From Methylovorus menthalis (GTDB taxonomy: Bacteria > Pseudomonadota > Gammaproteobacteria > Burkholderiales > Methylophilaceae), in assembly GCF_020523625.1 (NCBI RefSeq), contig NZ_JAJAQH010000001.1, forward strand, positions 136,930-200,929: 64,000 bases of DNA, in the 5' to 3' direction. This document shows positions 28,864 to 60,986 of this stretch, in pieces. Both the position numbers and the translations under genes were made by a program. Below the pieces are notes generated by a model that ran no database searches, was not told where the DNA came from, and worked only from the letters and a program-made list of their open reading frames with translations. Position 1 is the first letter of the stretch; each line of letters begins with the position of its first letter.

Positions 28864-28878
28864 GCACCATAGGGGTGC
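28864..28878. promoter_or_regulatory. Putative NtrC-binding site upstream of torF-glnK-amtB
   Basis: GCACCATAGGGGTGC is a 15-base dyad with perfect GCACC/GGTGC arms, matching the NtrC enhancer core GCACC-N5-GGTGC. Its centre lies about 128 bp upstream of the predicted start of the sigma-54 promoter, a normal enhancer distance. Confidence 0.75.
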
Positions 28879-28972
28879 CGCAAATTATTGTAAACAAGGA
28901 AATACTCTCATTGTTTCACCCAGCTCATTACTTTAGCATTGTAACTCAATGTTTTTCCGTGCTTTGTCTTTT

Positions 28973-28988
28973 TGGCACGAGTGTTGCT
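28973..28988 (+). promoter_or_regulatory. Sigma-54 (RpoN) promoter of torF-glnK-amtB
   Basis: TGGCACGAGTGTTGCT matches the -24/-12 consensus TGGCACG-N4-TTGCW exactly. Transcription would start near 28999, giving a leader of about 42 bases before the torF ATG. Confidence 0.85.
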
Positions 28989-29905: not shown

Positions 29906-30300
<395 letters not shown>

Positions 30301-30312
30301 TAGGGGACAGCC

Positions 30313-31752
30313 ATGAAACGATTTTTATCTCTGATTACATTAGTTGGTATGTTGGGCCTGGGCACACTGGGCGCCAGCACCATTGGTTTTGCCGAAGATG
30401 AAGCTCCGGCAGCCACCACCACCGAGGCGGCACCTGCTGCTGCCCCAGCTGAAGCAGCGCCAGCCGCTGAAGCAGCTGCTCCCGCAGAAGCAGCACCGGC
30501 TGCTGCTGCTGAAGAACCAAAAATGGATACCGGCAGCACTGCCTGGATGATCACAGCTACCGTACTGGTCGTGATGATGGCCGTACCTGGCCTGGCACTG
30601 TTCTACGGCGGCCTGGTTCGCACCAAGAACATGCTGTCCGTTGGCATGCAGGTATTCGTTGCTTTCTCCCTGATTTCCGTCCTGTGGGCCGTGTATGGCT
30701 ACAGCATGGCCTTCTCGGAAGGGAATGCGATTGTCGGCGGATTAAGCAAAGCTTTCCTGGCAGGTGTGACGCCTGACAGCCTCAGCGGTGTTATCCCTGA
30801 GTATGTCTTCATCACCTTCCAGCTGACCTTTGCTGCCATTACGCCAGCCCTGATCATTGGTGGTTTCTCCGAGCGTACCAAGTTCCCAGCTGTACTGCTG
30901 TTCCTGGCACTGTGGGTGACCTTCGTTTACATCCCTATCGCCCACATGGTTTGGGGCGGTGGTCTGCTGAGCGATGCTGGCCCATTGTTTAACGGTCACG
31001 GCGCTAAGGACTTTGCTGGTGGTACTGTTGTTCACATCAACGCTGGTATTGCAGCGCTGGTGGGTGCACTGGTTATCGGCAAGCGCATTGGTTACGGCAA
31101 AGAAGCCATGCCTCCACACAACCTGGTGATGACGCTGATTGGCGCCTCCCTGCTGTGGGTGGGTTGGTTCGGTTTCAACGTAGGTAGCGAACTGGCTGTT
31201 GACGGTGTTGCTGGTCTGGTTCTGATCAATACACAACTGGCTACTGGCGCTGCTGTTGTTGGCTGGGTATTTGCTGAATGGCTGTTCAAGGGCAAACCAA
31301 GCATGTTGGGTGCTGCTTCTGGCGCGATTGCTGGTCTGGTTGCCATCACTCCTGCTTGCGGCTTCATCGGCCCAATGGGTTCCATCATCCTCGGCTTCCT
31401 GGCCAGCTTCATCAGCCTCTGGGCCGTTACCAAGCTGAAAAATGCTCTGGGTTATGATGACTCTCTGGATGTATTCGGCGTACACGGTATTGCTGGTATC
31501 CTGGGTGCTATTGCAACGGGTGCACTGATGTCTGCAGACTTCGGCGGCGTTGGTTATGCTGAAGGCGTGACCATGAGCCAGCAAGTGACAACCCAAGCCA
31601 TCGCAGTAGGTATCACTGTGGTATGGACTGGCGTGATCAGCTACATCCTGTTCAAGATTGTTGACATCGTCATCGGCCTGCGCGCAAGCGAAGAGTCCGA
31701 GCGCGAAGGTCTGGACACCACTGAACATGGTGAACGTGCTTACCACTACTAA
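30313..31752 (+). CDS. amtB: Ammonium transporter AmtB
   Basis: The 479-aa channel moves ammonium across the inner membrane. A signal-peptide-like segment is followed by a low-complexity Ala/Pro/Glu region (about residues 28-72), then eleven membrane helices. Key features are GGLVRTKNM, the Phe gate region, and paired His positions in VVHINAG and VFGVHGIAG. The C-terminal cytosolic tail (RASEESEREGLDTTEHGERAYHY) is the GlnK-docking tail. Length is greater than E. coli AmtB (428) mainly because of the Ala-rich spacer. Confidence 0.95.
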   Translation: MKRFLSLITLVGMLGLGTLGASTIGFAEDEAPAATTTEAAPAAAPAEAAPAAEAAAPAEAAPAAAAEEPKMDTGSTAWMITATVLVVMMAVPGLALFYGGLVRTKNMLSVGMQVFVAFSLISVLWAVYGYSMAFSEGNAIVGGLSKAFLAGVTPDSLSGVIPEYVFITFQLTFAAITPALIIGGFSERTKFPAVLLFLALWVTFVYIPIAHMVWGGGLLSDAGPLFNGHGAKDFAGGTVVHINAGIAALVGALVIGKRIGYGKEAMPPHNLVMTLIGASLLWVGWFGFNVGSELAVDGVAGLVLINTQLATGAAVVGWVFAEWLFKGKPSMLGAASGAIAGLVAITPACGFIGPMGSIILGFLASFISLWAVTKLKNALGYDDSLDVFGVHGIAGILGAIATGALMSADFGGVGYAEGVTMSQQVTTQAIAVGITVVWTGVISYILFKIVDIVIGLRASEESEREGLDTTEHGERAYHY

Positions 31753-31782
31753 GCCTTAACGCTTAAGTAGCAGTTAGTCAAA

Positions 31783-31810
31783 ACGGGCGCAGCAATGCGC
31801 CCGTTTTTTT
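31783..31810 (+). terminator. Rho-independent terminator of amtB
   Basis: The stem ACGGGCGC/GCGCCCGT with a six-base loop is followed by seven T residues, 31 bp after the amtB stop. Its stem is nearly the same as that of the terminator at 32088-32114. Confidence 0.92.
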
Positions 31811-31898: not shown

Positions 31899-31915
31899 TG
31901 CACATCAATGGTGCA
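31899..31915. promoter_or_regulatory. Putative NtrC-binding site upstream of the candidate sRNA
   Basis: TGCACATCAATGGTGCA is a dyad (TGCAC-N7-GTGCA) matching the NtrC consensus TGCACCA-N3-TGGTGCA well. A further TGCAC half-site follows at 31919-31923. The centre is about 106 bp before the predicted start of the sigma-54 promoter below. Confidence 0.75.
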
Positions 31916-31986
31916 CAAATGCACATTTTTAGCTTTGAGAAGCTATTCATACTCAGAGAATGGCCCCAAAATGGAGGCAGAAAAGC

Positions 31987-32002
31987 TGGCACAGCGTTTG
32001 CT
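31987..32002 (+). promoter_or_regulatory. Sigma-54 (RpoN) promoter in the amtB-gshA interval
   Basis: TGGCACAGCGTTTGCT matches TGGCAC-N5-TTGCW without a mismatch. GC of the -12 element falls at 32000-32001, so transcription should start around 32012. No gene follows before a terminator at 32088. Confidence 0.82.
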
Positions 32003-32011
32003 TATGTATGA

Positions 32012-32114
32012 CTAGGCATAAATTGCTCCACACCTCGGTGTTAAGAACATTTTATTGCTCGGTTTCCATGCATTATCTCCTCCTCTTCGGGCGCAATCTG
32101 CGCCCGTTTTTTTT
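32012..32114 (+). ncRNA. Candidate NtrC/sigma-54-dependent small RNA (about 100 nt)
   Basis: The unit is defined by a sigma-54 promoter with an upstream NtrC-type site and a Rho-independent terminator. Within it are a small hairpin (ACAC-CUCG-GUGU, 32025-32036 region), an A/U-rich single-stranded middle, and a CU-rich stretch (AUCUCCUCCUCUU, about 32075-32087) just before the terminator stem. The CU-rich stretch is complementary to strong Shine-Dalgarno sequences. I see no ORF with a ribosome binding site. Nitrogen-controlled sRNAs with such promoters (for example NrsZ of Pseudomonas) are known in principle; I do not recognise this one. Alternative: an attenuated leader of gshA. Confidence 0.65.
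32088..32114 (+). terminator. Rho-independent terminator of the candidate sRNA
   Basis: The stem CGGGCGCA/TGCGCCCG with a three-base loop is followed by eight T residues, 56 bp before the gshA start. Confidence 0.92.
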
Positions 32115-32170: not shown

Positions 32171-33448
32171 ATGGTCCCTCATCTCACAACGGCCTTGACT
32201 GGCCCCCTGTTATCCCTTGAGCAACGCATGCTGGCAGCCATGCCGCAAATCGAACATTGGTTCCGTAGCCAATGGGCGGAATACAGCGTTCCCTTTTATG
32301 CGTCGGTTGATTTGCGCAATGCGGGTTTCAAACTGGCCCCGGTAGATACCAACCTCTATCCCGGCGGATTCAATAACCTTAATCCAGAATTTTTATCCCT
32401 CTGCGTGCAGGCCGCCATGAGCGCCGTAGAGAAGATCTGTCCGGATGCCAGGCGTCTGCTGGTCATTCCTGAAAACCATACGCGCAATACCTTTTATCTG
32501 CGCAATGTGGCAGCACTGACCAATATCCTGCGGCATGCTGGCCTGGAGGTACGGATAGGCAGCATTTCCCCCGAGATTACCGAACCCACCCATCTGGAAA
32601 CTCACGATGGCGGCAGCATCCTGCTCGAGCCAGTACAACGCAAAGGCAACCGCCTGGTGCTGGATGATTTCGACAGCTGCGCCATTCTGCTCAATAACGA
32701 TTTATCCGGTGGCGTGCCGGAGATCCTGCAGGGTCTGGAACAGACCCTGATCCCCCCCTTGCATGCTGGCTGGGCCACCCGCCGCAAATCGCAGCACTTC
32801 AGTGCCTACAACCGCGTTGCCAAAGACTTCGCCAACCTGCTTGGCATTGATGAGTGGCTGCTGAACCCATACTTTGATACCTGCAGCGGCCTGGATTTTC
32901 ATGCGCGCGTGGGAGAAGCCGAGCTTGCGGAAAAAGTGGATCAGTTACTGGCCAAAATTCGGATCAAGTACGCCGAGTATGGGGTTGAGCAAGATCCTTT
33001 TGTCATCGTAAAAGCCGATGCAGGCACCTACGGCATGGGTATCATGACCGTGAAAAGCCCCGACGATGTCAAAGACCTCAACCGCAAGCAGCGCAATAAA
33101 ATGGCTGTGGTCAAAGAAGGCATGCAAGTATCAGAGGTGATCCTGCAAGAGGGGGTATACACCTTTGAATGTATCCATGATGCGGTTGCTGAGCCTGTGG
33201 TCTACATGATGGATCATTTTGTGGTGGGCGGTTTTTACCGCGTACATACTGGCCGTGGCATCGACGAAAACCTCAATGCGCCGGGCATGCACTTCGAACC
33301 GCTGGCCTTCGAGAAACCATGCTCTCTTCCCGACTGTGCGGGTGCGCCTGATGCACCACCCAATCGCTTCTATGCCTATGGCGTGGTCGCGCGACTCGCC
33401 TTGCTGGCAGCGGCAATTGAGCTGCAAGAACACGACCCAGACCAATAA
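32171..33448 (+). CDS. gshA: Glutamate-cysteine ligase, proteobacterial type 3
   Basis: The protein of about 425 aa catalyses the first step of glutathione synthesis. It belongs to the type found in betaproteobacteria, Thiobacillus and relatives, unrelated in sequence to E. coli GshA. Recognisable segments are PFYASVDLRNAGFKLAPVD, PGGFNNL, KADAGTYGMG and GGFYRVHTGR. The ATG at 32171 is used; a TTG two codons upstream is also in frame. Only two bases separate its stop from gshB, so the two are co-translated. Confidence 0.92.
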   Translation: MVPHLTTALTGPLLSLEQRMLAAMPQIEHWFRSQWAEYSVPFYASVDLRNAGFKLAPVDTNLYPGGFNNLNPEFLSLCVQAAMSAVEKICPDARRLLVIPENHTRNTFYLRNVAALTNILRHAGLEVRIGSISPEITEPTHLETHDGGSILLEPVQRKGNRLVLDDFDSCAILLNNDLSGGVPEILQGLEQTLIPPLHAGWATRRKSQHFSAYNRVAKDFANLLGIDEWLLNPYFDTCSGLDFHARVGEAELAEKVDQLLAKIRIKYAEYGVEQDPFVIVKADAGTYGMGIMTVKSPDDVKDLNRKQRNKMAVVKEGMQVSEVILQEGVYTFECIHDAVAEPVVYMMDHFVVGGFYRVHTGRGIDENLNAPGMHFEPLAFEKPCSLPDCAGAPDAPPNRFYAYGVVARLALLAAAIELQEHDPDQ

Positions 33449-58857: not shown

Positions 58858-60910
<2,053 letters not shown>

Positions 60911-60986
60911 CAATAGGCGAAAGTTACGCGAAACCAGCAATAAAAGCAAGTTTGAAGGACTTGTGGTTGAAGCAGGCAAGCACCAT

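Follow-up and report, generated by a model that had tools for sequence, protein, structure and literature searches.

The gap between the ammonium transporter gene amtB and the glutamate-cysteine ligase gene gshA of Methylovorus menthalis raises the question of what kind of gene, if any, it holds. An initial annotation of the window, that is, the whole 64,000-nt stretch of DNA analyzed here, had proposed a nitrogen-controlled small RNA (sRNA) at this place. The best reading in our view, and a likely one, is a stand-alone trans-acting sRNA that would be made by NtrC~P-activated sigma-54 RNA polymerase and would block Shine-Dalgarno (SD) sites with its seed. A promoter present in 21 of 21 homologs, enrichment of NtrC-type dyads, a terminator, covariation in an apical stem, and a seed predicted to be unpaired all support this interpretation.

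Organization of the amtB-gshA gap

All features of the locus lie on the plus strand. The gene of the P-II nitrogen regulator, glnK (29962-30300; NCBIfam NF007946 above cut-off), is followed by amtB (30313-31752; TIGR00836 above cut-off) and by an intrinsic terminator with a 12-pair stem and a T-rich tail (31780-31807), which sets amtB apart from the RNA gene. Sequence inspection then revealed a pair of overlapping NtrC-type dyads, after which come a perfect -24/-12 element, the CU run, and finally a strong terminator; the dyad, the element, the CU stretch, and the terminator all lie where the initial annotation had placed them. The transcript of about 102 nt (32013-32114) is predicted from its homologs and a fold z of -3.7. 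Its start was placed 12 nt past the C of the -12 element and its 3' end at the T run of the intrinsic terminator (32088-32114), which consists of an 8-pair GC stem (32088-32106) and T8. The downstream neighbor is gshA (32171-33448; TIGR02049 above cut-off). Elsewhere in the window, a TPP riboswitch on the minus strand (60807-60918) scored above its Rfam cut-off.

Conservation of the predicted RNA and its putative sigma-54 promoter

BLASTN with the region recovered whole copies in two congeners and, in other genera, mostly the 3' half of the RNA. With a covariance model built from 18 RNAs, from which the promoter was excluded, strong homologs (E<1e-7) were detected in 21 of 187 Methylophilaceae genomes, representing eight genera; 18 of the 21 had built the model, and those of G184, G186, and G039 stood outside it. 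Model matches with E values from 7.6e-6 to 0.1 in 53 more genomes were left uncounted, some of them being the sibling RNA described below. AmtB was encoded upstream in 20 and GshA downstream in 20 of the 21 loci, and both in 19, as counted within 3-kb loci, so that an absent neighbor may be farther away. When the region following amtB was inspected in 25 selected genomes (over 499 nt in G146), the RNA appeared only in G039, which is already among the 21; the RNA is thus far from universal in Methylophilaceae.

The -24/-12 element TGGCACAGCGTTTGCT (TGGCAC-N5-TTGCT; 31987-32002) is an exact match. The pattern TGGCACNNNNNTTGCW has 11 matches in the 2.92-Mb genome versus 3 for a backward-read control, and about 2e-4 matches would be expected in the amtB-gshA gap on the sRNA strand, as calculated from the genome counts. 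Conservation in relatives, to which the initial annotation had tied its proposal, was found: all 21 strong homologs retain at least nine of the eleven fixed bases (11/11 in 17, 10/11 in two, and 9/11 in two; the element of G184 was scored by eye). Judging by the sequence, the predicted non-coding transcript is preceded by a putative -24/-12 promoter whose GG and GC keep a fixed distance. The -12 element and the CU run are separated by 72 to 77 nt in the 18 loci measured, save for 64 nt in G178 and G179, and RpoN is present in 177 of the 187 Methylophilaceae genomes.

Identity to the congeners G176 and G175 amounts to 97 and 93% in the NtrC dyads, 100 and 100% in the -24/-12 element, and 94-100% in the parts of the RNA. 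The corresponding values are 54 and 59% for the spacer between dyads and promoter and 74 and 63% for the stretch upstream of the dyad. Conservation continues past the terminator, with 95 and 100% identity over the 56 nt to gshA.

Among the 10 other exact -24/-12 sites in the genome, two have an NtrC-type dyad. One of them (28864-28988, plus strand), with the dyad at 28864-28878 and a perfect element at 28973-28988, lies upstream of a TorF-family porin gene, glnK, and amtB, and the porin preceding glnK and amtB seems, from this arrangement, to be a member of the nitrogen regulon. The other is located 297 nt ahead of a gene judged by eye to encode a nitrate-type ABC binding protein; NCBIfam gave no name for a fragment of this candidate. 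At a further locus (L033, G000:C1:494033), a perfect -24/-12 element was found 113 nt before a gene resembling those of PQQ-dependent methanol/ethanol dehydrogenases (a TIGR03075 match below cut-off on a 150-residue piece), with no NtrC-type dyad in the scan.

NtrC-type sites upstream of the promoter

The first NtrC-type dyad, TGCACATCAATGGTGCA (31899-31915), matches 12 of 14 consensus positions and has its center some 106 nt ahead of the predicted start; the second, GTGCACAAATGCAC (31911-31924), overlaps the first and lies within the conserved island. NtrC itself was detected above cut-off in this genome, where an rpoN gene is present as well. We scored an NtrC consensus in the 120 nt that precede each of 19 promoters, comprising those of 18 of the 21 strong homologs and L012. 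The summed score was 203 versus 165.8 +/- 3.6 in shuffles (maximum 176). The best site was centered at -104 to -108 from the start in 12 of the 19 loci and scored at least 10/14 in 16 of them, including L019 and L020, whose scores were also attained in 47 and 54 shuffles, respectively, out of 200. Scores fell below 10/14 in L012, L015, and L018, and the dyads were displaced or near shuffle level in L008, L017, L019, and L020. At the sequence level, NtrC-type dyads are enriched upstream of the putative sRNA promoters, and we regard the locus as a conserved RNA gene that is probably turned on by nitrogen shortage.

Predicted fold and CU-rich seed

The window RNA is predicted to fold into an irregular 5' hairpin (32015-32059 in the MFE fold), a single-stranded stretch, and the terminator. 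It folds better than shuffled sequences (z -3.7), and the terminator gives part of this effect. A tetraloop hairpin had been annotated at the start of the transcript; the tetraloop (CUCG) is indeed predicted, and its position needs correction, since it caps the apical stem ACAC-CUCG-GUGU (32030-32041) at the tip of the longer hairpin. All four pairs of the apical stem change on both sides in some relative among 16 RNAs, the loops of which are CUCG, UUCG, GCAA, GAAA, and similar, and the outermost pair does not form in 6 of the 14 distinct rows. Covariation of this stem was 0.503 versus 0.185, was reached by none of 500 shuffles, and stayed at or below 0.220 in slid controls, as counted on hand-picked 14-nt segments of 16 of the 21 RNAs, the same sequences from which the structure was named; L005, L019, and L020, which offered no fitting segment, as well as L014 and L062 are omitted from this count. 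RNAalifold applied to the full alignment recovered only the terminator.

Directly before the terminator lies the CU-rich anti-SD seed UCUCCUCCUCUU (run TCTCCTCCTCTT; 32076-32087), predicted to be unpaired with a mean probability of 0.92. Across 23 folded RNAs, including three short forms, the mean unpaired probability of the CU 9-mer ranged from 0.79 to 1.00. By sequence and predicted fold, this RNA has the anti-SD trait, a conserved, predicted-unpaired CU seed complementary to SD sites. Overall, the comparison across Methylophilaceae agreed with the initial annotation: the promoter occurs in all 21 homologs, the seed core CUCCUCCUC is invariant in the 18 aligned homologs (with the preceding U in 16 of the 18), and two stem pairs of the terminator show compensatory changes in relatives.

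A sibling RNA after glgA

A pattern with shorter spacing had matches in 13 of the 187 family genomes, and its backward control matched nowhere; not all of these 13 are the sibling RNA described next. In the order, the short form of the pattern was found in 2 of 399 genomes. Examination of 33 loci identified in 20 of them a sibling RNA of about 58 nt. Each of these 20 loci shows a -24/-12-like element and a short hairpin whose loop contains UCUC (GAGCUUUCUCCAAAGCU or a variant), together with a second UCUCCUCC and a terminator. This sibling with a second CU seed is new here, as are the look-alikes with NtrC-type sites described below. Seven of the 20 were found by patterns that contain the -24/-12 element. 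Of the 13 found without it in the pattern, 12 score 9 or 10/11 and one 8/11, and windows of 8-9/11 are weak, because unrelated CU-plus-T places score 6-9 in a similar scan.

GlgA matches accompany the sibling in 18 of the 20 loci (L118, L119, L120, L123, L127, L251, L253, L254, L271, L279, L281, L282, L283, L285, L288, L289, L292, and L293; the match in L118 was named by NCBIfam) and are absent from L124 and L125. G035 has one copy after glgA and another beside gshA. NtrC-type sites upstream of the sibling are not enriched (145 versus 152.6 in 18 loci), which implies that the seed is not bound to nitrogen control alone; judging from these upstream regions, another activator may drive the sibling. 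In Methylovorus, the sibling was not seen in searches with exact TCTCCTCC plus T6 and with the long-form model.

Look-alikes beyond Methylophilaceae

A scan of 84,980 species, each represented by a single genome, for the element, a CU run, and a T run at long spacing yielded 43 stretches, which we sort as 14 from Methylophilaceae, 11 of Gallionellaceae type, seven Rhodocyclaceae/Burkholderiales-like, two gammaproteobacterial, one from Desulfocapsa, and eight chance-like ones that were not counted (L072, L078, L079, L084, L089, L094, L107, and L109). Within the Gallionellaceae-type group, L095 and L103 are less alike than the other loci, and the taxon named is broader for four of the 11 ("Gammaproteobacteria" for L093 and L100, "Proteobacteria" for L102, and "Betaproteobacteria" for L095). 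The 11 loci reached an NtrC score of 114 versus 94.1 +/- 2.5 in shuffles (maximum 102); sites in nine of them score at least 10, and eight of these nine are centered 97-107 nt before the start. In the other look-alike groups, NtrC scores match those of shuffles (57 versus 58.3 and 25 versus 25.5).

Matches to an ABC-transporter-like gene were found in nine of the 11 Gallionellaceae-type loci and a GGDEF-type gene in six. Among the look-alikes with NtrC-type dyads (L075, L081, L083, L086, L093, L096, L100, L102, and L108), all but L075 have the ABC-transporter-like gene, which lies downstream in L083, where this was read; it also occurs at L115, a short-pattern locus in another family. No NCBIfam ABC model scored above cut-off on 400 residues of this gene. 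Five further loci (L077, L098, L106, L112, and L114) hold RNAs of three hairpins that share the CU seed. By eye, these have a dyad of the TGTCG...CGACA type and no NtrC sites upstream, and this dyad may point to a different enhancer-binding protein.

A CUCCUCC core recurs in the long form, in the sibling, and in the distant look-alikes, with flanks that differ. It is tempting to speculate, albeit with considerable doubt, that sigma-54-driven anti-SD RNAs form an unrecognized modular layer of regulation, comprising the long form at amtB, the sibling after glgA, a Gallionellaceae-type version with NtrC-type sites upstream of the ABC-transporter-like gene, and NtrC-site-free versions in Rhodocyclaceae/Burkholderiales, gammaproteobacteria, and Desulfocapsa. 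Under different enhancer-binding proteins, such RNAs would mimic the anti-SD tail of the ribosome and lower initiation on messages with GA-rich SD sequences.

Targets and alternative readings

The initial annotation expected partners of the CU stretch among SD regions; the genome-wide search for complementarity produced no convincing conserved target. The pattern GGAGGAGAN{1,8}ATG occurs at eight places in this genome, two of which are one spot, the complement of the RNA itself, and among the six remaining exact GGAGGAGA places before ATG, dhaK is the sole evident gene start. Over eight genomes, the same pattern was found at 81 places versus 23 for the backward control, an excess for which general SD use accounts. 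A dhaK match exists in 18 of the 21 RNA-bearing genomes, of which 17 were compared (the match in G183 is partial). The duplex of the seed with the dhaK ribosome-binding site is at or below -13 kcal/mol in 15 of these 17, -7.3 in G181, and -11.9 in G182; it ranges from -6.1 to -11.3 in six genomes without the long RNA, which were scored with the Methylovorus seed and one of which, G065, has the sibling RNA (G034, G038, and G140 were omitted from this comparison). Since the duplex energies vary in step with phylogeny and base composition, and since dhaK was singled out only after it had been seen, we consider dhaK an improbable target.

The 3' tail of 16S rRNA resembles the CU run. By mimicking this tail, the RNA could compete for many strong SD sites and broadly damp translation in nitrogen shortage, rather than silence a set of specific mRNAs. 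The shared CUCCUCC core with its differing flanks would fit such an action, as would the single evident gene start among the six exact places, and the similar-looking ncS27 is described, in the part of the report available, to slow growth on overexpression (PMC5688073). However, the flanks of the core are also conserved within genera, which suggests specific pairing, and we judge broad action to be unlikely.

The RNA might instead serve gshA as a leader or attenuator and never exist as a free molecule. This could be supposed because in 20 of 21 loci gshA is the next gene, in the same orientation, and because the 56 nt separating it from the terminator are nearly identical in the two congeners. 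Yet a strong terminator precedes gshA, a weak sigma-70-like site lies between the two, one copy (G107) has no gshA in its 3-kb locus, and the sibling RNA occurs elsewhere, after glgA. Because of the terminator, the G107 copy, and the sibling, this explanation is very unlikely.

Even less probable is a small protein encoded on either strand. On the plus strand, 10 of the 18 RNAs contain a frame that starts with M[HL]YLLL and overlaps the seed, and frames of the type LIFTSQD.EHLTA occur in Methylobacillus RNAs; on the reverse strand, the seed complement GGAGGAGATAATG resembles a ribosome-binding site and start. However, no frame of at least 8 codons is common to all 18 RNAs; the M[HL]YLLL frame usually reads on through the terminator with no stop codon and is frameshifted, shortened, or without a start in the other eight; and the frames on the reverse strand, which in three genera span 5, 10, and 15 codons, differ in sequence. 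Least probable is that the region is non-functional and its promoter a chance match: the terminator alone could be kept as a terminator, but promoter, dyad, hairpin, and seed are conserved jointly.

Proposed mechanism and its meaning

For the stand-alone sRNA, we envisage that in nitrogen shortage NtrC~P would bind the dyads at 31899-31924 and activate sigma-54 RNA polymerase at 31987-32002. The resulting transcript of about 102 nt would run from around 32013 to the terminator at 32088-32114. Its 5' hairpin would fold away and leave UCUCCUCCUC single-stranded directly before the terminator stem; UCUCCUCCUC would then pair with GA-rich SD sites of the GAGGAGA type and keep ribosomes off a set of mRNAs. 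The RNA ends in a U8 tail and an hfq gene is present in the genome; Hfq would probably act on this tail.

Obligate methylotrophs need carbon assimilation matched to nitrogen. Among the matches listed from the open-licence literature, we found no sRNA controlling carbon-nitrogen balance in methylotrophs and no sRNA from Methylophilaceae. The RNA adjoining amtB provides a compact, conserved candidate for a nitrogen sRNA that is easy to delete. The sibling after glgA could connect control of this kind with carbon storage, just as MmgR is connected with storage granules in Sinorhizobium, and if the look-alikes in iron-oxidizing betaproteobacteria act alike, placing anti-SD RNAs under sigma-54 would prove a general device.

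Comparison with known systems

No Rfam family reached its cut-off for this RNA or its searched relatives. The lowest E value below cut-off for the window RNA was that of RF00519 suhB/MmgR (18.8 of 41 bits, E 0.058, 151 bases), which gave 22.5 bits (E 0.74) with the sibling in L119, again below the cut-off of 41. The values for the window RNA were 24.2 of 50 bits (E 0.091) with ncr982 and 16.4 of 50 bits with RF02278, and RF02278 had no match in 20 loci at the gathering cut-off and none in six loci at E<=3, nor did it match any sibling locus searched.

A nitrogen-limitation sRNA of enterobacteria is known as GlnZ. It resembles the proposed RNA in responding to nitrogen limitation and differs from it, according to the portion of the source available, in being derived from the 3' UTR of the glutamine synthetase mRNA with no promoter of its own (PMC9731577). 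NmsRA and NmsRB of Neisseria likewise have two anti-SD motifs, one of them between stem-loops, and repress several metabolic mRNAs; as far as the available text describes them, they differ in their putative -35/-10 promoter and TCA-cycle targets (PMC5362039), and also in their tandem copies. The RF02278 toxic sRNA and ncS03, ncS05, ncS27, and ncS62 are, by the accessible descriptions, similarly short betaproteobacterial RNAs with unpaired CU-rich stretches aimed at the ribosome-binding site, and the layout of these four double-hairpin RNAs is similar to that of the sibling RNA; "sigma54" is absent from the main text on them in the form available (PMC5688073, PMC4603805). NcS25 of Burkholderia was dropped as an analog, as the available part of its description finds neither an upstream sigma-54 motif nor a response to nitrogen (PMC10117139).

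NfeR1/alpha-r14 of Sinorhizobium comes closer in that its anti-SD seeds, CCUCCUCCC, are unpaired, that it is linked to NtrBC and nitrogen stress, and that it silences by covering ribosome-binding sites. In the available sections of the source, it differs in having three seeds in three hairpins and no sigma-54 signature, and in being repressed by NtrC, not activated (PMC10746234). NrsZ of Pseudomonas, which the initial annotation had named as a kindred nitrogen sRNA, is a functional analog: compared by description, and within the text available, it is likewise an intergenic sRNA made under nitrogen limitation via NtrB/C and RpoN, whereas it is about 226 nt long, processed, encoded in the ntrC-PA5126 gap, and an activator of rhlA (PMC8395346).

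By analogy, the nearest precedent, closer than NrsZ, is MmgR (alpha-r8) of Sinorhizobium. The available portion of its description presents a 77-nt trans-sRNA with an anti-SD motif that is induced by NtrC, depends on Hfq, is tabled with both RpoD and RpoN, and limits carbon storage granules (PMC7143759). NtrC induction, the RpoN listing, and the anti-SD motif parallel traits that are predicted for the RNA proposed here, and the role in storage granules may be set beside the position of the sibling after the glycogen synthase gene. Unlike the window RNA, MmgR has its anti-SD motif in the first loop, forms three stem-loops, and is alphaproteobacterial (PMC7143759), and we take it for a functional analog. 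The precedent of MmgR makes the mechanism proposed for the Methylovorus RNA less novel and, at the same time, more likely to work.
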